A DNA stretch of 64,000 nt from Membranipora membranacea (lineage: Eukaryota > Bryozoa > Gymnolaemata > Cheilostomatida > Membraniporidae). The notes under the pieces were generated by a model. It did no database searches. It had not been told where the DNA came from and saw only the letters and a program-made list of their open reading frames with translations. Shown here piece after piece: positions 29,228-47,200 of this stretch. The stretch lies in NCBI GenBank assembly GCA_914767715.1, contig OU612069.1, positions 26,533,387 through 26,597,386 of the forward strand, in the 5' to 3' direction. Each line of letters opens with the position of its first letter. Position 1 is the first letter of the stretch. A program made the position numbers and the translations under genes.

Positions 29228-32200
29228 CTGCTTTGTAGATGAATGCATTGCTGATTCCCTGAAACACCGTTGTGAGCATGAGTTCACTCAATAGACCTAA
29301 AAATATACATGCAATAGGATAAGATTTCTCATCAAGTGTGATATATATATATATATATATATAGTTACCTAAAAATGAACAATGCTTCTCGCATATATCA
29401 TGTGTGTCCAGACTCTTGACAAACCCAGCCCCACCCGGCGGACTCCCAGTGTGTCAAAAGAGGCAGAACACCTGATTAAATATCCTGTCGTCATGAGTTC
29501 GATCATTGCCTTCGTTTATTCATATGCCCATCATTCACTTCACAGAGCCCAACTGCAGAGAACATAACTCCAGGAATCATAAGTGTTGTCAATGTTTTCA
29601 ACACAGACAGACCAGATGTGGGGACATTGTCAATGGAATTTACAGGCACCCACCTTTGGTTGCAACGGTGACTACACTGGAAGCTATACTGCAGAGCTGC
29701 CCTGCCACTATCCTGTGAAGTAATAATATTCTGTAGCGGGTTCTACTGTTGATTATCGTGGTAACAGCGTATATTATCGGTATAAATACAAGACCTGTAC
29801 TTTGTGATGTCACAGAGCCTAATAACTGAAAATAAAATCTAATTGGACAGCAAAGTTTGACTAGCAGCCAAGAGAGTTGCTCAATGTTTCATCTGATGGA
29901 GAAAACAACTAGGAAGGACTGTTTTAGAACACACCACAATATGCAGAACAAAGTGTTCATGCAAATCTTCTGCAGAGATTTCAAAAATCGCCTTTTCTCT
30001 TTTATAATTACTGTTTGTCACATCCAAGGGGGCTTTTATTTAGAGAGAGAGAGAAAACATCTCTAGAGAAAGAGATCAAAACAAAAAAACACATTCTCAA
30101 ATGATGACTATATGTTACATATTCCCTATCAGCCACTTACCGGGTCGTAAGGGTAATCGAAGACTGAAGTATTGTTCTGTCCCATCAAGCTATTATGGGC
30201 CTAAATGAAAAAGATTAAAATTGGCAGCACAGATTTTTTCGTGTCTTATCTCGTTTGTTTGTATGTTTCATCATCATCTTTGAAGCGGAGAGAGTTATCC
30301 TCTCTTGGGTACAGGTACCGGTGTAGTATTGTAAACTGTCCCCCGCGCCAAAACAACCCCGGGACACTTTACAATATTGTAAACTATCCCGGGGACACTT
30401 TACAATAAAAACAGGCCTATTGTAAACTGTCCCCCCCTATTGTAAACTGTCCCCCCCTATTGTAAACTGTCCACCCTATTTGTGACTGTCCATATCAAGG
30501 GCCCAGCTGTTTATCACCATTCTAAATGGGTCAGACCATCTAACTGGAGCATACCATGACGTTCTGGCAGCCACTATGATGGACAAAGATGTACCATGGG
30601 ATGGTGGTGGTATCTCATTGACATTATGAATGAGTGTATAAAGACATTTTTTCATGTGGTACTTGAAAGATCTATTTTTGCAAACACTAGTTCTTGTATG
30701 AAGCTCCTATGATTCAGAGATGTTTGGTTTGCGAAGAAAGGTGCACTAAGCCAACAGTGAAAAAATGTGTAGTTACCACATCACAGAACGCGCTGTTCTT
30801 GGAGTGCCTTGCAAACAGGGACCATTGCCGAAGTAAGAACAATTATCAAAATCGTACTTAGGCACCTTGATGATGATATACTCTCTCATGCAGTGATGGC
30901 TGAACAAACCAACTAGCGGCAATGTGTACTAGTGCTGCTTTCGTAATAAGTTGAGGCCAGAATTTTCGCTAACCCTCAAAAAAGCTTTGCTTAAGCCGTG
31001 CGAAAACAACCGTCCCCCAACAGATACTTTTTTAAACTGTATGCTCAAAAATGACAGGCGGCATCAAATGTTTCTTTACAACCATAGTGTAGGTGTCATA
31101 ATGATACTATTGGTCCATTTTCGGATGAATGCATCGCAATTTAATGAGCATAACAGGTGTTTTGCATTTGACAGAAGCTCAATGAGCCGCGCGAAAACAA
31201 CCCCCCTCCCCCCCCCCCCCCCCCCGAAAACACCCATCTAGAATGGCACTGCTATTCGGTATTTTTGTGTGTGTCCTGCTGAAAATGTTTCTGCTGCATT
31301 ACTTGTCATACTTAACACTGTAACCCTGCATATAAACCAATTGCTTAAGCCGCGCGAGCACAACCACCCCCCAAACCGTCTTATAAATATTACCTGTCAA
31401 AAAGTCTCAAACATAATGAACCATGCTTTGGCAGCCATAATGTGATTGTCATGAGGTGACTGTGTACCAAATCTCGCATTAATAGGTCAGAACTTAATGA
31501 CACAAGGTGTTACCCAGCAAACACAAAATGTTATGAAAATGTTCTGATAACATTATCATAACAGTAGTGGTCCTCGTGATAACGTCGTGCCACGACATCA
31601 AAATAGCAAAATGTGTAGACACAATTTTATTGCCGTGATAATAGTTTCGAACGATGTTTTACAAAATGTTTTCATAACAGTTTCACGATGAAATTTGTTA
31701 TCATTGAAACCCAGTATTGTGGCGATTCCCTGAGCGCATTTTGCCCGATATTTGAAGAAACCATCTAGATAATGTCTTTATAACAATCCAATCCGTCATC
31801 GTCGAACTCTACTAAAAGCATGTTTTTGCCCGATATTTGGAGAAACCATTTATATAACGTCATCATAACAATCCAATTCGTCAATGCTGAACTCCATTAA
31901 AATTTCCAAATTTAAATGACTTGACGATTTGCACTGCACAGCAATGACAGTAAGACAACAGCCATTGCTTCAGCACTACAACTTTCAAAGCTCTGTTTAC
32001 CTCACAAGTCTATCAAATCCTCATATTCGTCATCTGATTAGCAAAGAGTGTAGTGATGTTCCAAGGTGTTTTATTCATTGCAAAATAATGTTCAATGATG
32101 ATTATATACGTGTAATCAACAATTTTGTTTATCAAAAGTAACAAAATGAACATTAATGGTGGAGAAAAATAAAATTGGTTAGATATCTATTTTTTTACTT

Positions 32201-35200
32201 TATTGGCTCTCTATGCTGCAGTCATCGCTGTCCCCATTCAGAGTAAGCTCTGTGATTTTCTAAAAGAAGAGAATAACAACACATTCTTATTACAGTTGTT
32301 TTCCTACAATGCATTTGGTTCAACTCCACCGATACAATGCTTCTTTCAAGACTCCTTTGTATTTTAAGGAGTTGTCCGCTCCTGTACAGAGGTCTGAGCT
32401 CAAAGCTCAAAATAGTTATATGATTCGTTGGATTGAATGGTAACAGAGTCAGATAGTAAACTCAAAATAGGGCTCCTAAAATAAAAATTTATCATTCATT
32501 GAGCATCGGCTTAGCAATGACCTTTGTTATTTGCTCGCTACTTTTAGTTCTAACAAGCTGCATACATATTTGTAACTTGTTTAGAGAAACTAGGCTAAGA
32601 CTTACTTGAAAGACCTTACACAATCTTAAGTCTTTCAATGAAACTTGACTACCTGGAGCTTGAACTGCAATTAACCTAAAAGTGCCAGTCTGTGTGCAAT
32701 TCATTGTACTGAGCTAGATAGTATGTCTTGACAAGCTTTGTCGGCGCCCCCTCCCCACCCAACAAAGGTTGTCATGACAGGCCATTTGCCACTCAACTTA
32801 CATTTTGTTTCCAACACTAAAGTTGATGCCGCCCTTCTGATTAGGTGCGGCTCTACAGAGATTCCCCATCTTCTCTATCAACACAGTGTCATTGTATCCC
32901 AGTGCCCTCACAGCTCCTTTGAGAGATAAACATATCAATTACTAGAAGGCAGCGCAGGCAGTCAAACAAAACTGGGGTAAAACATAGTGAACATAAGAAA
33001 CTTAAACAAAGCACAATATACAGGCACTTGAGTTTTGACCATTGAAATGTTTATTGGCAATGTTGTTCTCATTTGGTCTGCAGTCCAGGTTTTATTTACT
33101 ACTTGATCAACTTTAATTGGGTTTTGAGTTTGAAAATTGCATGAGATTGAGCAGCGTTTCACAATCACGTTCGAGTTGTTATTTGTTAAAGAAATCATTT
33201 ACCCTATAGGAGTTTAATTTAGCTAGAGTTTAATTTCGCTATCTGGACCTGGAACTAAATTTCGCTAGTAGGCTTACTAGTGAAAATTTTAAAAAAATGT
33301 CCAAGCTGGGATTCAAACCCAGGGCATAATTCTCCATCTGATTGCAAGGCAGACACTTAGACCGCTACACCACACTAGCTTGCATGCTTGGGAAGGTGTA
33401 TTCCTGTATAATTGTACATTGTTTATGCAACTATGGTGAGTGAGTTTAATTTAAGATACACTAAATTTCGCAACCTAGGAATCAACCGAAATGCGAATCC
33501 TAAATGCCGCGAAAACTAAACTCCTATAGGGTAGATAAAAAATTAATATCAGTTGATCTCGAAAAGCTCAAACTCAAAGTATGATTGATGATAACACCGT
33601 TGCTACTACACATCCCAATGGTGTAATAGCACCCAAGAATAAATGCATCACTGCTAATACTCCATTTAATGTCCTGTCTAGATTTATCATAAAATTTTTG
33701 AAGTACAGTGAGAACCACTACCCCTGCCTGCTCATAAATATCATGTGCTTCTACCCTTAAAAGCTCACAGAGTAAATAATGAATAACAATTGTCTATGTT
33801 GCCCATCACATGAGGGTTCATACTAAATGCCTTACACAAGTAGTTGTCTTCCAAAACCTCATGGGCAGGTAACTTCCGCTAATAATTCTGAAAGCACTCA
33901 TTGAATCAACAAATGTGTGTAAATTACGCTTAAGGCAGCATTTTGTCATCAAAGCCTTTACTTACTTCCTATCGTCTTGAAGACTCTTGTGCCTGCAAGG
34001 CACTGTTTTGTCTTTGTGCCCTGCAGCGTGAAATGCTGCCAAACATGGTTTGAAGCCACTCTCCTCATTGTGGTGAAAACAGCCTCGGTGAGGCTCCTTC
34101 CTCCGATTGTCTCACAGAATTTTTGCTGCAAGAATAAATTTTATGGAAACTGAAAAAAACACAACATTTTTATAATGGCGTATCTGTATATGCGTCATGA
34201 AAGTTAAAAAGTCTGTTTTTTTCCGTCCAGGCCCCCATGTAGCCGATCTGCCGATATGGTTGACATTCTGTAATTCGCCTTCTCTTTGCTGTTATGTTTA
34301 ATAAGAGCAAACTAATTCGAGCACAGTCATGATTCATATCAGATGTAGATCATGTGCTGCAGAAATGATTCTTCCCTTGACCCCTGAACTCCAGGCCAAA
34401 TCTAGCCACCCTTTTACATATCCACCTATTTTTGCAGCATGTTTGCTACCCAAAATTTTTGATATTGCAAATTAAAGTACTGATTAACCACTGGTCTACT
34501 TACAAATTGCTGATACTTGGTATCATCCTCTTTGAGTTGCTCGTTGAAAAGCGTGAGCTCCTCTGGAGATATCAGAGGGCTCTCAAACATGTCGAGTATG
34601 TTTTTCTCGACTGCAGAGCAACTGCCACTCTCTCCTCTCTCAAGGTGTCTGATTATCTTGCTGACCTTCATATCAAGGTTTGTCAGCAACCCTATAGAAG
34701 AAATATGAAAATCCATTCAACCAATTATTCAAGTTTTTTCCAGCGATACAACCAAAGGCAAAGTCTTTTGTTTCGCAAAGAATATATTGGGGTACTTTGT
34801 CCTGTATTTGAGGGAAGACTGTGGATGAATTACTTTGCCTGATTGTGTTGGTGTTGGCAGTAAGTGACAGCCTAATAATTGACAAACAGATAAAAAAATG
34901 TATGATTTAGATCGAAATGGTCGCTGCCATCCAGGGAGTATTAATCTATTTATCAACATTCAAATAACTCACTTTCAATTTTCTGATTTGAAGTTTCCCC
35001 CAACTCCACACACGATTGTGAATATCCATCTACAATAAAAACTTGGAATTAAAATATCATAGTATTCCATTCAATGCTAAAAGTTCCTTATCAAGGTTCA
35101 ACAGTTCAATCAGGAGTTGTCCACCATTTTTCACAGAGAGGGACAACTCATAAGATATTTATGTATTTCGTTACTAATAGGGTTGTGTTGTTATAGTATA

Positions 35201-38200
35201 CCATTGTTGAGCTGAAAAAGTGACCAATGAGCTTAAATCTAGTAACAGAACAAAGGTAGTGAGGTGGTCCACAGTTTTGATAGGAACAGATGATAAATAT
35301 CCGTCTAGCAAACTTGACTGAGCTATTGTAGTCCGGAAATTACCGTATCGATTCGGATCAAGTTGGTCACATTTATCATCAGCAACAAAATTGATTACTC
35401 TGCAGTGACCTCGGCCAATCTATTGGTTGGAATTTATTCAAATATTTGACCAAATTATGTGAAAAGGATTTCAGATGATAAGTTTTCAAAAATCTTAAGC
35501 TTATCTGTATTCTTTTTGAAATTGTCCTGCTATAGGTTCAATCCAACTTCATCTTACTGCAATGAACATGTTTTAAAGAGTGCACTGATGTATTGAACCA
35601 CCTATGCATGATTCTGAGGCATTCCAATTAAGTGTTAGAAGCGGAGGCAGATCTCAGTTCCGGTCCAAAGTTGTCTGGCTATTATCTAATCCAATATTAT
35701 TCTCTCATTTGAGCAATACTGTTCAAGTCTCAGAAAAAACTGGATACTGTATCTTTGTTGCAATGAGCCTGATTTTTGTACAGAGACTAAAAGGAGAAAG
35801 GGATGCTTACGCATACTAGCCGATGGTTCTGGACTCATAATTCTGGGCTTTTTTCTTTCGGAGTTGAAGTGAGATCTTCATCTAAAAACAAAGAATTTTT
35901 TTGCTAGCAGTCGATAAATTGTTAGGTACTTATTCTGAAGTCGTATTTTCACTCTCTCTAAACTTAACAACAAAACAAAGTGGCTGCTTTTAATGTAACT
36001 ATGGGTTATCAATGAACCGAAATGGATCTTCATCTTTGGCAGAAACCATCTAAATATTGAACCCATGATGGACGTTAACTGTCAACGGATGTTAGTTGAT
36101 ATTGAAGATACCAAGAGAGAAATAGATGTTTAGCACTTCTGGTGTATTTCAATTATTGTTCACAGATGGTCGGAGTTGTCAACCCCTTTCCCGTGACATC
36201 GCAACTCCAAGGCAATGTCAAAAATAGACTTGGCTGATAATAATGATCCCTTTCTGCGACTACAACAACGCCTGGATGATTGGGCTAGCTTATTGTGTTG
36301 CAAAAATCAGAGATATCGAATCATTGAACATACATATTGGGAAGAGGCTGCCTCGAATAACATTATAGGTTATTAAATCAATTCTGAGTCAAGTGCATCT
36401 GGTGGGGCCCGCTATCATGATTCTTCTATAATCGGTCTTTAAGTTGGTAATGCATTTTATCTCATGAATCAATCTTGAGTTATAACTCACCATGAGAGGT
36501 CTTTAGATCAAATGACGGTAGTGGTATAGCCATACTACTGCCATCATGTGTACTATTGTCATCATTTGCACCATTCCTCTCTTCTCCATCACCATCATCT
36601 TTAAAAAATTACAACTGAATTAACTTCTTAGTCAAATGATTGCACCGGGCACAAAATTGTTTATTATATGGACCATAACAAACCACAGATCATATTTAAC
36701 GTATTGCCGTATTGCCGGCAAGGGGTTGGAGTGCAACAAATCGATAATGGTGCTCAATGTGGGATACATTTTAATATTTATCACAGTATAAAGGAAATGC
36801 TGACTAGCAGCAAGACCTAGACCGGCCATAACGTGTATAGTAATGATCAACTCACACCAAATATCAAAACACCAATACCGGTACTGCAAATCATGCATAC
36901 ACATCATGACAGTGACCACTCCTTACTGCTTGCTATCAGTTCCCAACCAAAGATTTAGTGGTCCTTTTCGCTACATAAACCGACCAACCGCAACTGCATG
37001 CCCTAAATTAAATATGAAAATAAAAGAATGTTGCATACACTTACTAGGGTCCTTCTGAATTCGCTGGGGAGATGACAGAGTTTGTTTCCTCAAGCTTTGT
37101 TCACCAGCCTCTGTATCTACATAAACACAGTATTTTCAAACCAAAACATCAATGTTAACCTGTTTGTGGTATGAAATCATTAGTTCAGTCTGCGCTTGTT
37201 TACCAGAAATAAATTGCCTCGCCAATAGTTTATATTGACAACATCCAACAACCCAAATACTTGTAAGAATTCCTAGAATAAATATCCTTGACTCTTTTTA
37301 CAAGGGAAATCTTAAGCAGGACCAATTTTTATGTAGCAGTACAGCGACCTGTGAAGCATCGAGATCAAACAGGACTAAATATATACATATACAGTGCTGT
37401 TCCCTGAGTTTTCAATGGTCGAAAGCGCAGACACTTGATTTGAATGTCAGGCCATGTGAATATTTCTTTGAATGATTGACAAATATTGATGCTTAGTGAT
37501 AGTAATTAATTCAGACATAGGAAAGGACAGCCTTTAAACCGAACCATTACCTCCAACCTAACAGCAACCACATTGCTGGGGACATCAGTTATATTTATTT
37601 ATATTTTTATGTAAAGTTTAACTAACCAGTAGTGATATCATCCTTCTTTCTTGCTTGCGACTCATACACCTTGGCCTTTTCGTGGTCCTCTGGAAAGAAA
37701 ATGCGTAACATTTTAGTGAGAGGGATGCTGGCATATGTTTGCAACACGATCTTGCTTAGTACTGCAAACTTTTGTAGATTGAACTTAAGTTTGGCTCTAT
37801 TGTGCATGCGGTGGTCATGTTATGTGTGCAGCGCTCAAATACATATTATGAATTGACTAAGGTTGCAACTCCGAGTTCCATCCTGTTACTGAGGATATAT
37901 GTATCAGCTGTGCTTTTTTTTGAAAGTCTCTCATTTTAGAAATTATTTTTTGAGCTATAATCTCCGCTATAACCACCCTCGAAGATTAAAAGATTCCACA
38001 GCCGATAATACCAAGTGAATGGGATATCCCACAAGAATTTATCGGCGTAATATAGTACTTTCCTATAGTGTGATGCAATCATGATAAATTATTGAAACCA
38101 ATGCCGTAGACAATGTTAGCTTTGTCTCATTACCTGTAAGCTGCAATATCTTCGCGTCATACAACTTCCAATTGCCAATATCTGGAAATGCATGCTCCTT

Positions 38201-41200
38201 CCTGAGGCTTTTTCCGTTTGTGGTGGGTGGTGGCCAATAGCATTTCTGGAAAAAATAATCAGAGCAGCTGTTACACTAGTCAATAAGAAAGGAATCCAAG
38301 ATAACATTTGGAATATCCACAGATCAGTAAGGCATAGGCACTTGCGAGGCTTTGTCTTGTCAATCCATGTTGGCGCTGCTAAACACCAATGTATACCAAA
38401 AATCAGTATTTGGGGCATTTCAACCATATGGCACTCTTTTCAAATGAACCAACTTGATAAATCTTAAAAAATAGATTTGAAATCATTAAAATAAAACTGC
38501 ATATTTGAATATTGGAAATTTAAAAAAAAAAGGGTTTTGCTAAGAAAATTTATGACTCACCACAACTGAGTGTTTTAGCTTGTCCTTTTCCTTTAATAAA
38601 ATTGAGTTTTTGATCCAATTACTGCTAACAATGCTTACTTCCTCTCTTCCAATGGAGCTGACGATGTAATACAATGGTGCTTTTGGAGCCATTTTGCTGT
38701 ACTAGTTTGAGAGACTGATGTTGTTTTCAGATTAGATTTCAATTGACTGAGGTATCCTATGATGGCACAAGTGGTTGATGCCAGCTACAATTATTCGGCT
38801 GGCTGTGCTTTACAAGTCTCAAGGGTGGTTATCAATAGTGGTCAATTATAAAATGTTTCGACCACATATTGTAACAACACAATTCTTGAAATAAGCTCTA
38901 TTTCACATAACCCTGTGATTTTTTCATGTGGGTGTATGAAACTGTTGTCTGTGTTCATCATGAATAGAAAGTCGACACATGAAGATGTTGTCTCTTTGTG
39001 TACCTTAGTACAACAAGAAGCCCAAACGAGTTTTGGTGGCTCCAACCATGTGTGCATAGGAATGATATGGGGTAGAATTGCTATAACTGCATGAGATTAT
39101 CAATAGGCTAATTGTGTCAGACACAGATCATAAATATTTAATTGATTAAAATATATATTTCGCACAAAATTTAAATAAGATAGGGAGACTGGGTAAATTA
39201 GACAGAATGATGACTCGTATACTCATTTCCCTGCAAACGTTTAAAAGTCGAATATAAAACTTTCCGAAATAACCAGGTAACAAGTGTCAAATTAATGGCC
39301 AAATTATTCACTCAGAAGATCAAAGCTTGTTTGGAGATGTACTATTTAATTAGTATTATGCTATTGCTTGGAAATCATGCTTTGACATGCTTGGACATGC
39401 AAGTAGTTAGGTACTGCCTATAATCTGGCAAACATCGAAAAAGCGGAACCAAATCACAGAAAAAGACTGTGTGTTGATTACCTGACACCATGACACCAAG
39501 TGCCTGCGATTGGGTAAAACATCTGAACAGTCTGAAAATACTGTAAAATTTTAGCAAGATGTTTTATGCTAGGGTTAGATGCATGATGTCACAGGATGCC
39601 AGAGGATTGACACTGAGCTAGGTCAATGTGATCCATATGTGCTATTTATAAATTTTGCTATTTATAGATAATATCATAGGTCCTGATATCATAAGGTATT
39701 TGTTGTGGTCTACACAATGATCATTTGTGTAGTGCCTCTGTACTATGCAGTTAGCATAATTGCAGTTAGCAGTTGCAGTATGCATAATTAATCATCAGTG
39801 CACTGCAGTGCTAATTCATGTCATAAGGTCTATACTAGTGGCACTCCACAGATTATTAGATGTGATGTGTTATATTGATTCCGATTCTCTTTATCGTTTT
39901 TTTTTTGCAAAACTCCATACTCTCTCAATTCTATCACAGCAGAATAGGAATGCAGCAGTATACAATGGTATAAAAATTATTAAAAATTTTAGTTGACACC
40001 CTAGCCTCATTTAATCGTCCTGGGTCAATATAAAAAGCATGGATGAAGATTTGTCGAGCTTAAATTAGACTAGGAACTGGTAACAGTTGAAAATAAATTA
40101 TTGAGCAGTAGAATGTGGCGAAAACTAGGAGAACCCCCCCCCCCCTGTACGTACAGATTCATGTGGCCTAAAAACCTTGTTCATAGTCCCCTGGTCAATT
40201 TTGGGCTTACTGCTTATTTTGCAGTCACTATTATCTGTCCTTTTATTGAACTGTTGAAATTGTTTACATCATAATAATTTTGAAACATGTGGCTGCAGAA
40301 TCAATCAGTTTGTGGTTTTAGGGAATGTTGGATGAGCCAATTACTTAGCCTATGGAAATTGAATAATGGGAGATATTATCATGCATAGTCTGTAAGCTAG
40401 TAAATCTTGCACCTAAGTGTATGACTCTGACTTATTCAATAGAAAGTGCATTCCGTAATGATTCTGTCTAAACAGACAGAGGATTTGTACACTATTTCCA
40501 CAGTCCCTGAGTTCATAAAAAGGACAACATAGTCGAAGATTAACCTCCCGCAGTGACAGTTGCCAGATCATGTCAAATGCAAACTTAGAAAAAAATATTA
40601 CTACAGTCAACAGCATTATGATCACATCACAGAGTAAGGATATATATATATATATATACATATATCCTTACTCTGTGATCACATGCAGGTAGCATACCTG
40701 ACAAGTCTACCTTTTTGGTAGGGAGGCTCCCAGTTTTTAGGGGTAATTCCCATCCCCTCCCTATCTCCCTTTCTCCTCCCTTTTCCAGCTTCCTTTACTC
40801 AGAAAGTTTTTGAAGCTACCCTTTGCAAGAGTTACTGTGTTCTCCTACCATCACAGTACACATACCTATGTATTTGCTTATTAACACTACGTATTGTAAG
40901 CGGCTATTCAATATTCGAGCCTTACCTACCAGTGTCGTTATGGCTGCTCCTCCCAAGTTGGTTAAATCAAGACAATTTCATCCACATAATGAGGTAAAAT
41001 TATGCAATTAATAAAATTTACAGTCAAGTTTTGGCTTGGAAATATTATACACTAGGCCTAAATTGCATCCACACTCTTGGACGCAGAGTGGTAGTCCGGG
41101 TTTATAGTTCGTCCTTGGAGACCTCTTGATTTCTGGGTCTGCCAACTTGTCATGTATGACAACTTGTCATGTATGACAGGTAGTCTTACACCATACCTGC

Positions 41201-44200
41201 ATGTGATTGATCGATCATTATCAAAGCAAAGGAAGTTCATGATGTTTATCACTTTGATCTTATGACTGCCATCACACTTTTTAGCCAGATGAAACCTAGC
41301 CAGTAATGGTTTGATAATCTGACCTTGAGGTTACATAATACTCAGCCTAATTATATTCACTCATGTTACCTCTGAATTAAAATATAAGGGCCATGTCCTA
41401 GTATACTAGACCAAGTTTGGTCCATTTGCCTGCATTCCGAGTCGCTCCTGATCAACTGGTTACGCCGCAGGCCGTGACCGGTGGAAGAGAGCAACAGGAA
41501 TGTTCTAAAGTATACCGCCACACCCCAAAGTTACATAATATAGGCCTATTTCATGTAAATGACAATACTAGATGATGTATGTTTATTTACATCGACAATT
41601 TTATAACTGTATGAATGGACAGTCAATCATCAACTCTATTCAACAGTGGGATCAGAAGCTTAGCAGTGAATTGTATTAGCCCAGTGTTATAATCATAATA
41701 ATCAGAGGGTGTCAACAAACTGTCCCTTATATAGCACAGATTGAACTGAGGCCAAATTAACACAGAATTTATTAGCCCATACTCATCTGTGATTTTCTCT
41801 TGTTCAAAGTCAGCTAAGCTCCATAGTTTTTTCACAATAAAATTCAGCTGTGTCTGCTCAAGCTAATTTAATTGATCTCCCTCAGAAAAAACACATCGTT
41901 GATATACAGGCGGCCGATTAAGGTGCTGTCATTTGGAATACTTATGTCATGCTTTAGGTTATTAGGTAGGATACCAGGCAGAATTATTCCTGATCTAATT
42001 GACAAGCACCTTGATTGTATGATAAGATAGATTACAACAAAAAACAACCCACAGGCAGCCCTTAATGGCGTTCGGGATGGCGATCGTGGCTGTAGGTTGC
42101 ATACTATTTAGGTTGACTGCTTTATTCTTTTAGTAATCTGCTTGTGAATTTTCACCTGAGACACTCCTACAAAACCCAGTCAATGCAATGCAAAGGCCCA
42201 AAATTGCTCTCTAGGCTTTAGGGCCGGGGCTCTGCGCCGCACCCCGTTGGGTGGGCTTCCAGCGCCCCCAAACCCCTCAGCTGGGTTTACTTACTAGGCG
42301 CTTTGGTAAAAGATGGCAGGTTCACAATCAAAAGGGAGAAATCCACCCTGTAAATCATATTCTTAGGAATCATTTCTATAGTATGTATCGCTAGAATTTC
42401 AGTTTCTGATTTTTAAATGTGAGCTTTTTACCTTCAGCGCAGACAGCCACGTATAAATGTGATACCAAAATAACTAATTTGTTGTCTAGATTGCGGAATT
42501 GTAATGGAGGCGGATGTTTTAGGGATACACTTGTAATACATTGTGAACTGATAAATTGCTTGATTGATTGATGGTATTTATCCTCCAACACTTCGCCAGC
42601 AAAGTTACTCTTGATTAATTAATTTCTATGTAAGTGTGAGGAGCAAACCCTATCAATCATTATGCATTTCTCAAAGTTGAATTGTCGTTTGCTGAGATTT
42701 CAAAGTGAACATGTAAATGTGATAATTTTTGTACTAAATGTACTTTATAATTCGTTTAAATTTTAGGAAGACTGAAAACCAGATTTTAACTTCAAACCAT
42801 GACTATGTGGTGCAAGGGTGTCCAAATTGGGGCCCATGGGCCAAATGTGGCCCACAACTAGCAAATTTAAGTGGCTCAATTGCCATCGTGACACTCTACA
42901 AACGGCGATAATTCATGCGGGGCGCAAATGTCCTGATAACTCATACCATGCAACATGGTCTGTTTTCTGAAAAAACTCACATGGATTGGCCTACAACTGA
43001 ATAGAGAACAGAACTAGAGAACATCAGTCTGCAAGAAAAGGACACCAAAAAAATTCCCACTTGTTGAATTAGTTCTCTACAACAAAAATAATTACAGTAC
43101 GCCCCTGAATGGTTCTGATTCTCCCGTTTTTATAAGCCGCCCTCTTATTCGCTTATTTGCTAATATTCCGAATGGAATCAGTTTTGAAAAATCCTCAACC
43201 AGGACATGTGATTATTTGGATTAGTCAGTTCACTAGCCCAAAAAAATTATTTCCTCATGCAATGTTCAAAATTATGAAGCAAAATATTTGTTATGGGGCC
43301 TCCTAGCGACTATCAATAATCACCAAGCATAACTACTCTTGGCCCACGGACATTTTCTAAACTGCGAATATGACCCATGGTAGGACAAGTTTGGGCACCT
43401 ATGATGTAGTGATCACTATTGTTTATTGTTGGTTTGCCTGCAAACTATTTCTACCCTGACTGCCTTCAGGTCAAATCTAGCCATAGTGGTCAATCAGGAT
43501 TAACGATCCGATTGTGCCCTTCTCAGAGTTTTCTCCTCACAATAGATCAAGAAAAGCTTCGAGCATCGCTTTTTTTTTAATATAATTTCCACTTATTCAG
43601 ACAACACCAGGCCCTAAAAGTAATTCAATAGTGCCCAATGAGCAATCCCTCAGGTGATGAACAATTATTGCATGGTGTGGAATCCTTGAACCTTAGGAAT
43701 TTATTCGAACAATGTATAAATGTGATTTTTTATGCAAGTGGGAGCAACTCTTTGTTAAGCGTGTGCATAAAATTGTTCACAATAGTTTTTCTCCTAATTC
43801 AAGGATTTCTATTATACAGTTATTTATGTTGAAGCAAGCAAAGCAATTTATTAAATATATTGCAGTTGCTGTGCCCACGTGTACGGGGTGTAATTTTGTG
43901 TTATTAAATGTATGGCTGATTGTCTTTGTGACATCAGATTTTAAACCTTGAAACAGAAATAGCGGTAGTTCTCAAACTTGATACGCTGCTGTGCACATTC
44001 CTGCATAGTCAACAAAAAGTCATATTGTATGATTCCTATCTTCCAATTTAAAGCAGCTAATATTATTTTACATGATCTTCCTACATGAAGTTAAAATTCC
44101 GATGGCATGTGGTCCAACCAGTTTGCGTATGGAATTGTAGCATCTGTGTATAATTCCTTGGTTATGCTTAGATGATAAACGTAATGCAGTCCCAATGACA

Positions 44201-47200
44201 TTATGGTTCATGAGAGAACAACTCCCAATTCATCATCGGATGTTAATTTTGCATAAGCCCATGTGACATACGCATAAAATGAGGGTTAGAAATGTCAATT
44301 TTTCAGAACAAATTAGAACTGGTATGGTGGTTATTATTCGCACTGCTTGTGGACATATGGTAGACGGTGAACATGATATGAACTCGCAACACAAACATAA
44401 AACCTCGTTAAACTCAGCTGCGTGCCTTGCAGCAAAATACAGCCAATCGTCAAAGCCCAGCATGATGGGCCGCAGCATGACTATCAACCTTTCACAAAAA
44501 GTTGTTCAATCCTGTAAACCACACTCAACCGGACGTTGACCCAAGCCTCATTAGCCTAAAATCCTCCCCCAACTAAAAATATGCTATTCAAATGGTGGAT
44601 ACCACTTATTCACTCACAAGTTGCAGTCAGAATAAATGTTTCTAAACAGATAAAATGAAAGATAATAAAATATACTATCTGTGATATCTATTGATAAAAT
44701 TTTGCAAAGCTCTGAGACACAGTAATCATATAATTACTGATGATTATTCCTTGATATTGTTTTGATCAGGTTACAAAATGATTTTGAGAGAACAATTTTA
44801 CACCTGTTTTGCCATGATGTTATTGCTGGATAAGCTTCAAGAAGTTGTAGTGATGTCATTCCACGAAGTCATTCAGAACATTAACAGAGTGTCATGAAAG
44901 CATTTTTGTCAAATTGCCATATAGTCAATTCCACTAGATGTTACAGTAAAAGTCGGTGCACCTTGTTACAACAAGGACATGGCATATCAATCATGCTGGA
45001 TATTATATCGGAGTTATCATAGCATTTTGGAAAACTTCTCGTTAGAACGTTATGTCACAACAGGTGGATAATGTTACACAAAATTGTTAAAACAAAGACA
45101 TTGGATATCAATATTGCTAGATATTATATTGGAGTTATGGGAACATTTTGGATAGCTTGTCGTTAGAGCGTTATGTCAAAACTTGCTGATAATGTTACAA
45201 AAAATAATTTTGTGAAGTGATGGGAATAACATTTTGAGGCGATGTTTTAAACACAATAATATAATATCTCCAATGAGCTGCGTTTCAGCCAGTCAACCCG
45301 ATATCATACAACAATATCAGGGAGTATGCTCTTGAATGCAATTGCCCGATCACAACATTATCACGAGGTACAAAACATTTTAAAAACATTTTGCGTTTGC
45401 TGGGTATATGTCATTTTTTGCAGGTTCATGAGCCGCGCGAAAACAACCACCCCATTCATTCATCTTGAAATCTACCTCGACCAAGCATTTGGCTGTGAGT
45501 GATGACAGTCAGTCACAATTGTGACTGGTAGAAATAACCACTTTTGAGCTTTTCATATTGTGCAGCCTGGTATTGCACTGTAAAATATTTTATGATGAAT
45601 GAATGGGGTGGTTGTTTTCGCGCGGCTCATAAACCTGCAAAAAATGACATATAAAACATTGTGTCATTCAGTTCTGACCTAAAAATCCCAAATTTGGTAA
45701 ACAGTCACCTCATGACAATCACATTATGGCTGCCAAATCATGGTTCATTATATTCGAGACATTTTGACAGATAATCATTATGTGACAGTTTGGGGGATGG
45801 TTGTTTTCGCTCGGCTTAAGCAATATTTTACAGTCCAATACCAGGCCGCACAATATGAAAAACTCAAAAGTGGTAAGTTCTCCAGGTCTCAATTGTGACT
45901 GACTTTCATCATTCACAGGCAAATGCTTGATTGAGATAGATTTTATGATGAATGAATGGGGTGGTTGTTTTCACGCGGCTCATGAACTTGCAAAGAATGA
46001 CATATCATCTGCTGTGTCATTAATTTCTAACCTTTTAATCCAAAATTAGGTACACAGTCACCTCGTGACAATCACATTATTGCTAGAAAACCATGGTTCA
46101 TTTCGTTTGAGACTTTTCGACAGATAATTTTTATAAGACAGCTTGGGGGGTGTTTGTTTTCGCTCGGCTTAAGCAATGTTTTACAGTGCAATACCAGGCC
46201 GCACAATTTGAAAAGCTCAAAGAGGTTATTTTTCCCAGTCACACTTGTGACTGACTGTCATCACTCACAGGCAAATTCTTGATTGAGGTAGATTTCAAGA
46301 TGAACGAATGGGGTGGTTGTTTTCGCGCGGCTCATGAACCTGCAATGAAAGTATGTGTGTTCTGTGATGTGGCAACTACACATCTATCCACTGTTAGCTT
46401 AGTGCACCTTTCTTCGCAAACCAGACACCTCTAAATCATAGAAGCTTCAAATAACAACTAGTGTTGGCGAAAAATAGATCTACAAAGTACCATATGAAAA
46501 AGAGGCTTTACACACTCATTCATAACGTCAATGAGATACCACCATTATCCCCATGGTACAACTTTGGCCATCATAGTGGTGATAAACAGCTGGGCCCTTG
46601 ATATGGACAGTCACAAATAGGGGGGGACAGTTTACAATAGGGGGGGACAGTTTACAATAGGGGGGGGGGGCAGTTTACAATAGGGGGGGGACAGTTTACA
46701 ATAGGCCTGTTTTTATTGTACAGTGTCCCCGGGACAGTTTATAATATTGTAAAGTGTCCCGGGGTTGTTTTCGCGCGGGGGACAGTTTACAATACTACAC
46801 CGGGACCCATAGCACTCATGCCGCACCCTATACCCATGCCCGCCGGAAATCCGGCTACTTTTTATATCGAAGAGGCAGAGGGGGTTCTTTTTACTGCGTG
46901 TGGGGTGTGCAAAACACACAGTGGATCTCCGGTATTTTTAGTCCCGTTCCGCAAGGACCTGGCTAGGATGAATGGTGTGTCATTACCAAATCGAAATGAC
47001 TGCCGGCGCTGGGAATTGAACCTTGACTCCAAAGATCCAAAGTCCGTACCCTTAACCATTAGACCACTCCTGACTGTTTGTATGTTTGATAAATCTGACC
47101 TTGAAAGTCATTTCACAGGGCAAGACTTGTCCTTTCTGAATGAAATTGCTGAAGATTTCCACCTTCTCTCTAAAAATTAAGTGTATTGACATCCCAGCTC

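Follow-up and report, generated by a model that had tools for sequence, protein, structure and literature searches.

The DNA analyzed here, referred to as the window, is a 64-kb stretch (64,000 nucleotides) of the genome of the bryozoan Membranipora membranacea (assembly GCA_914767715.1, contig OU612069.1, positions 26,533,387 to 26,597,386 of the forward strand). It contains an element that measures 13.9 kb between its inverted ends and encloses a spliced gene for a DUF4806 protein. Very probably, this element is an internally deleted, non-autonomous copy of a large animal transposon of the CACTA/EnSpm type known as TRC, with a DUF4806 gene on board. The following features were assigned to it, in window coordinates.

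31511..31512: target-site duplication, left (TA)
31513..31546, plus strand: left terminal inverted repeat, A-type, beginning CCCAGCAAAC
31513..32199: left terminal region with AAAATGTT/ATAACATT repeats
32200..32259, minus strand: probable tenth DUF4806 exon (beginning KITELTLNGDSDDC), which would be in frame if the A-run of exon 9 were one base longer
32798..32916, minus strand: DUF4806 exon 9, ending ATGTAA, with the stop overlapping a GTAAGT donor
33966..34125, minus strand: DUF4806 exon 8, second half of the domain; best exon match in a second family (43% over 51 amino acids)
34504..34691, minus strand: DUF4806 exon 7, first half of the domain
34973..35029, minus strand: DUF4806 exon 6
36491..36598, minus strand: DUF4806 exon 5
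37045..37116, minus strand: DUF4806 exon 4, the place of a 1-nt deletion in 4 of 10 other short copies
37627..37689, minus strand: DUF4806 exon 3
38134..38245, minus strand: DUF4806 exon 2 (CYWPP...)
38561..38692, minus strand: DUF4806 exon 1, with the ATG at 38692
39840..39844: probable deletion scar, at the site of a 3.6-kb segment in long copies; its two flanks overlap by 5 bp
44500..45404: right terminal region
45371..45404, minus strand: right terminal inverted repeat, G-type
45405..45406: target-site duplication, right (TA)

The initial annotation of the window had described 20-bp inverted ends flanked by TA. The end sequence matched exactly at 31513-31532 (plus strand) and 45385-45404 (minus strand), and a scan of the window with up to 3 mismatches returned these two matches and no others (0.02 expected). 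The inverted arms reach 36 nt with 89% complementarity, the flanking TA counted in. A genome scan with up to 2 mismatches gave 82 matches compared with 3 for a control pattern. Among the 78 ends with at most 1 mismatch, 62 formed 31 adjacent inverted pairs less than 35 kb apart and 16 were unpaired. Every pair consisted of one A-type and one G-type end, and the spacing was 12.9-15.1 kb in 23 of the 31. All ten short copies that were compared with the window element aligned with it end to end; identity was 94-99.8% depending on the segment, and the largest gaps measured a few hundred bases. In view of the 31 inverted pairs, the ends do not belong to two independent miniature inverted-repeat transposable elements, an outcome that the initial annotation had named as a refutation. 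An equal 2-bp direct repeat flanked the window copy and each of the ten short copies, with the sequence TA in six of these 11 cases, AT in two, and TC, TT and TG in one each. Both long copies described below were flanked by TA on either side, and overall 13 of the 14 copies examined had a 2-bp duplication. In 12 further end pairs with both flanks visible, a set biased to near-TA flanks, 10 were judged equal by eye. TA thus holds for the window copy but not as a fixed rule. The matching, variable 2-bp repeats and the full-length copies establish the element as a real multicopy transposition unit with a 2-bp duplication.

A lone G-type end of the family lies at C5:26598024, 638 bp past the window, with no partner listed within 2 mismatches. 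Three loci with the near-match end TACCCAGTAAACACAAAA (L036-L038) were tried as family members and rejected as unrelated repeats. A copy on C8 (L034-L035, C8:21422035-21441686) spans 19.6 kb. It was rejected as a long copy, being of the short type with other insertions of ~4.6 kb and 0.7 kb, and it has a partial duplication close to its left end. The literature matches listed for the outermost 10 bp of the inverted repeat concerned other subjects, judged by their titles.

The DUF4806 gene was recovered with the nine exons, consistent phases and 336-amino acid product of the initial annotation, and it was placed on the minus strand (38692..32798). Pfam PF16064 (DUF4806) matched residues 215-291 with an E value of 2.6e-6 and 28.1 bits, above the cut-off of 25. 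When the window element was scanned against Pfam in all six frames, nothing exceeded the threshold (best BTB_2, E 0.049); even DUF4806 was missed, owing to its short exons. The DUF4806 protein, used as a query for homologues, returned one match, apparently an exon-plus-intron fragment of another copy. The gene was found between the end pairs in all 14 copies examined out of the 31 pairs (window copy, ten short copies, C8 copy and two long copies), often in broken form. Its frame is open in both long copies, where the terminal A-run of exon 9 has one additional base, so that the frame can continue into the tenth exon. The splicing of this gene model, and of the transposase model presented below, is predicted from the sequence.

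No transposase had been recognized initially, which holds for the window copy but not for the family. Two members of the pair list were longer, at 17.3 and 17.5 kb, and these are the full-length relatives with a transposase that had been proposed as a search target. The first long copy (L029, L030) matched the window element throughout and had an additional 3.6 kb at window position ~39,840. In the second, the 3.6-kb segment lay at the same site and was 98.5-99.2% identical. A 581-amino acid open reading frame (ORF) in this segment showed similarity to Transposase_21 and DUF4218, in both cases below the Pfam cut-offs. Two upstream exons extended it to a three-exon, 639-amino acid transposase model with phase 0 introns in the first long copy. 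Exon 1 was located through a weak tblastn hit (E 0.10) on the beginning of a homologue from a crab and was otherwise read by eye. The transposase gene is open in the first long copy and frameshifted late in the second. It reads toward the right end and DUF4806 reads the opposite way, giving a head-to-head, divergent arrangement.

Of 7,991 candidates scored in a search with the transposase, 824 were homologues. PF02992 or PF13960 was precomputed for 19 of the 120 homologues listed, and two homologues showed weak Plavaka similarity. No relative turned up when viral contigs were scanned with the alignment of the transposase. In 29 aligned proteins, hand-picked from the 120 homologues listed, D116, D195, C214xxC217, H416xxxH420 and E440 were invariant. 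By analogy with the motif definition for the CMCT clade in the available part of PMC12730594, we infer that these are the acidic catalytic and the zinc-binding residues. The AlphaFold2 model of the transposase had a predicted local distance difference test (pLDDT) score of 88.5. All ten Foldseek matches in the PDB at E ≤ 1e-3 were RAG1 or Transib (best 6.5e-8), with modest template modeling (TM) scores of 0.29-0.50 by query and 9-13% identity in the ten best matches. The transposase is thus predicted to have a RAG1/Transib fold. It resembles RAG1/Transib in this predicted fold and in the acidic and zinc motifs, whereas the ends differ and the duplication here is 2 bp, compared with 5 bp for Transib. 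That DUF4806 itself is the transposase of an undescribed class is extremely improbable. The idea drew on the fact that neither the initial annotation nor the Pfam scans of the window copy recognized a transposase, and it is refuted for this family by the RAG1-like transposase with acidic and zinc residues in the long copies.

The known animal CACTA elements of the TRC type that were compared are SmTRC1 of Schistosoma mansoni, a 5.2-kb element of Tribolium and a 9.2-kb element of Aedes aegypti, as far as the available text of PMC1636069 describes them. Transposase_21, ends starting with CCC, 2-bp duplications and a large size are common to these and the Membranipora family; the Aedes aegypti ends read CCCAGTCAAC and the Membranipora ends CCCAGCAAAC (PMC1636069, same text). 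All three hallmarks (Transposase_21, CCC ends, 2-bp duplication) were found here, the transposase in the two long copies only. Judged by its transposase, its CCC ends and its 2-bp duplications, the family is assigned to a known class and not to an undescribed one. The initial annotation had offered two readings, a captured host gene in a non-autonomous element and a DUF4806 protein belonging to an undescribed class of terminal inverted repeat element. The second appears closer, in that DUF4806 seems to belong to the element, as a second family described below also indicates; the undescribed class did not stand. From the first reading the non-autonomous state was retained, through deletion of the transposase, and the capture was not.

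Remnants of the segment edges bear on how the 14-kb copies arose. In 7 of the 11 short copies both edges were kept in part, one over ~107 bp and the other over ~24 bp; neither edge was kept in the window copy, L009/L010, L015/L016 and L021/L022. Because of these scraps, the simplest account is that the 14-kb copies, including the window copy, are non-autonomous deletion derivatives; internal deletion is usual among dependents of CACTA elements. A genome search found at least two loci with the transposase at 99-100%, compared with 31 end pairs. From this disproportion we infer that the 14-kb copies moved, now or formerly, in trans, mobilized by few long copies. A different CACTA element nested in a DUF4806 element could also account for the 3.6-kb segment, which was present in just 2 of the 14 copies examined and whose site in the window is a clean junction with a 5-bp overlap. 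We regard such nesting as very unlikely: no CCC ends were seen in the junction sequences inspected, the first transposase codon lies ~24 bp inside one segment edge, both edges are kept in seven short copies, and the gene order is the same in the second family.

A ranking of ORFs of at least 35 amino acids by synonymous and nonsynonymous change over 38.7-45.4 kb revealed no convincing further gene. Minus-strand ORFs of 75-90 amino acids at 41623-41862, 42391-42618 and 41058-41330 have a protein-like composition and no Pfam match. Indels among copies lie nearby, and these ORFs could represent the decayed exons of another gene. A palindrome at 40626-40679 (27-nt arms, 96% complementary, no spacer, TATATA core) is rich in indels among copies. 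At 33197-33536, a pair of 24-nt inverted repeats (92%) encloses ~290 bp, and the minus strand of this stretch resembles the A and B boxes of a tRNA, which we take as perhaps a short interspersed nuclear element; ARAGORN on 33100-33600 detected no tRNA. Fixed differences between long and short copies amounted to ~3% over 32.8-41.5 kb and 0.6-0.7% over 41.5-45.4 kb, and the low divergence of the latter part points to exchange between the long and short lineages.

The strongest evidence on whether DUF4806 belongs to the element came from a second family, whose transposases are 56-59% identical to the one described and, among the matches listed, lie on C7. This chromosome also holds 14 of the 31 pairs of ends. 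The regions upstream of the two second-family transposases (L039, L040; 8 kb each) are 98.4% identical to each other, and their similarity extends to the limit of the compared sequence. With tblastn, DUF4806-like exons were detected in L039 and L040 on the strand opposite to the transposase and in preserved order: residues 46-72/74 (E 3e-4 and 0.003), residues 247-297 (43% identity over 51 amino acids, E 2e-10), residues 304-329 (E 0.002) and a weak piece near residues 9-46. The same search in six other loci and eight reversed sequences gave nothing under E 0.01 (best 0.069). Several splice sites coincide between the families when compared by eye, and DNA similarity upstream of the transposase is limited to 34 and 28 bp. 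In two families that cannot be aligned as DNA there, DUF4806 and the transposase are placed head-to-head. The pairing is therefore old, and the two-gene order predates the split of the families. DUF4806 looks like a standing part of the element and not a stolen host gene. The novelty of the family is its two-gene architecture within a known class, which was not found described in the literature searched.

The copies differ in the state of the gene. Four of them (L011, L017, L025, L027) have a common 1-nt deletion in DUF4806 and form one clade, with 58 unaligned bases in addition in L025. There are stops in L019 and L021, a changed donor in L009 and a 1-nt deletion near the end in L023. Between the two long and the 12 short copies (C8 copy included), 23 nonsynonymous and 20 synonymous differences were fixed, compared with 67 nonsynonymous and 12 synonymous polymorphisms among the short copies (Fisher p 4e-4); counts were similar when a single long copy was used. 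On the branch separating long from short copies, dN is below dS. These counts suggest that the DUF4806 frame was maintained there and lost later.

Several observations weigh against a CACTA element with DUF4806 as its own gene. The PF02992 match of the 581-amino acid ORF (E 1.7e-4, 21.3 bits) is below the cut-off of 28.6, and the flanks of the C8 copy are unequal (GC left, CA right). The joined second-family exons had DUF4806 as their best Pfam match, at E 0.0098 and 16.6 bits, likewise below the cut-off. At two more distant transposase loci (37-38%), tblastn detected no DUF4806 in the 8 kb upstream (L041, L042), nor in the 4 kb downstream of the first (L043); there, DUF4806 may have been lost, may lie elsewhere or may be too diverged for tblastn. 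Pfam frame scans of L041 (six frames), L042 (three minus frames) and L039 (three plus frames) were empty, and these negatives were not counted because L039 holds DUF4806-like exons and the scans are therefore blind. Only 3 of the 11 short copies (window copy, L013, L015) are without a stop, frameshift or broken splice site in the gene. Among the 14-kb copies the ratio of nonsynonymous to synonymous polymorphism (pN/pS) was 1.72, indicating no constraint, and the difference in the DUF4806 coding sequence (1.70%) was neutral-like, close to that of the introns (1.72%). On the branch between long and short copies, the nonsynonymous rate of 0.029 was near the intron rate of 0.032, with a synonymous rate of 0.096, so constraint is not clear-cut. 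For this reason the second family was given more weight than the selection test.

Inter-copy variability was 1.4% in the left terminal region compared with 1.7-1.9% in the interior, and it was lowest of the five regions compared in the right terminal region (1.01%). As coding and intron variation are equal and the right end varies least, selection in the 14-kb copies keeps the ends and not the DUF4806 gene. Neutral decay among the short copies would also be expected of a host gene captured with its introns as a passenger of a non-autonomous element. The retained introns fit such a capture, and so does the single clade of four copies with a common frameshift, which indicates that a broken gene spread. 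We nevertheless consider a capture improbable, given the open frame in both long copies and the old head-to-head pairing in the second family.

The full element is 17.3-17.5 kb long. It has inverted ends that begin CCCAGCAAAC, subterminal repeats of the AAAATGTT type and two divergent genes starting from a shared central region, the transposase (modelled with 3 exons and 639 amino acids) and DUF4806 (modelled with 9 or 10 exons). As its family, the ends and the 2-bp duplication suggest, the RAG1-like transposase would cut at the CCC ends and join with a 2-bp stagger. By raw word counts, AAAATGTT occurs seven times and ATAATGTT five times in the terminal 1.7 kb, compared with three times and once in the 12.2-kb interior. 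Plant En/Spm elements have subterminal repeats and internally deleted dependents, and TNPA of maize En/Spm is a DNA-binding protein that acts on such repeats. The family resembles plant En/Spm, with its TNPA and TNPD, in combining a DDE transposase with a suspected DNA-binding partner. DUF4806 is reportedly a BEN-type DNA-binding domain, according to a passage of PMC11075544 that cites Pan et al. 2023, and the protein would bind the subterminal repeats and/or the shared promoter. The most likely mechanism, at a little under an even chance and by analogy, is that DUF4806 is the animal counterpart of plant TNPA. In the plant elements, alternative splicing of a single transcription unit yields both TNPA and TNPD (PMC1636069, in part), whereas the two genes here are separate and divergent.

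The main alternative to a TNPA role, which we consider possible, is regulation or de-silencing of the shared promoter: DUF4806 would be an element-borne regulator acting against host silencing or as a promoter activator, not needed for cutting. Plant TNPA helps to reactivate methylated promoters (available text of PMC1636069), and the TET dioxygenases carried by fungal relatives serve a similar purpose (available text of PMC12730594). DUF4806 is also dispensable in cis for the short copies; however, a trans-acting transposition factor would be equally dispensable in cis. As far as the accessible part of PMC12730594 (Kojima 2025) goes, the fungal CMCT-clade TET/JBP transposons resemble the Membranipora family in the C(2)C and H(3-4)H motifs, in their duplications (2-5 bp) and in having an extra gene. 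They differ in that the extra gene here is DUF4806, the host is an animal and the ends are CCC..GGG and not CA..TG (same source and scope).

A TNPA counterpart would bear on an older question about animal CACTA elements. Plant CACTA elements use the DNA-binding partner TNPA beside the transposase; a TNPA-like protein was postulated for animal elements in 2006, and a shared one was not found by similarity (PMC1636069, in the text available). In the same text, no relatives of the SmTRC1 accessory proteins PrA and PrB could be detected among other elements of animals or fungi; unlike in SmTRC1, the second gene here is a divergently transcribed DUF4806. In the passages mentioning DUF4806 in the literature searched, the domain was not linked to transposons. 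DUF4806 genes number 69 and 54 in Hydra compared with 0-6 in five other cnidarians (PMC7642931, available part). The head-to-head DUF4806 gene in two families is a concrete candidate for the partner postulated in 2006 (PMC1636069, available part). A broader reading, which we regard as rather unlikely, is that DUF4806 is fundamentally a gene of transposons and encodes the second protein, the TNPA counterpart, that has been missing from animal CACTA elements. The multicopy DUF4806 genes with patchy distribution in Hydra, beetles, mosquitoes and zebrafish would then be copies of it that such elements carry or that were domesticated from them. If true, this would provide a first function and an origin for DUF4806, a domain that is multicopy in Hydra.

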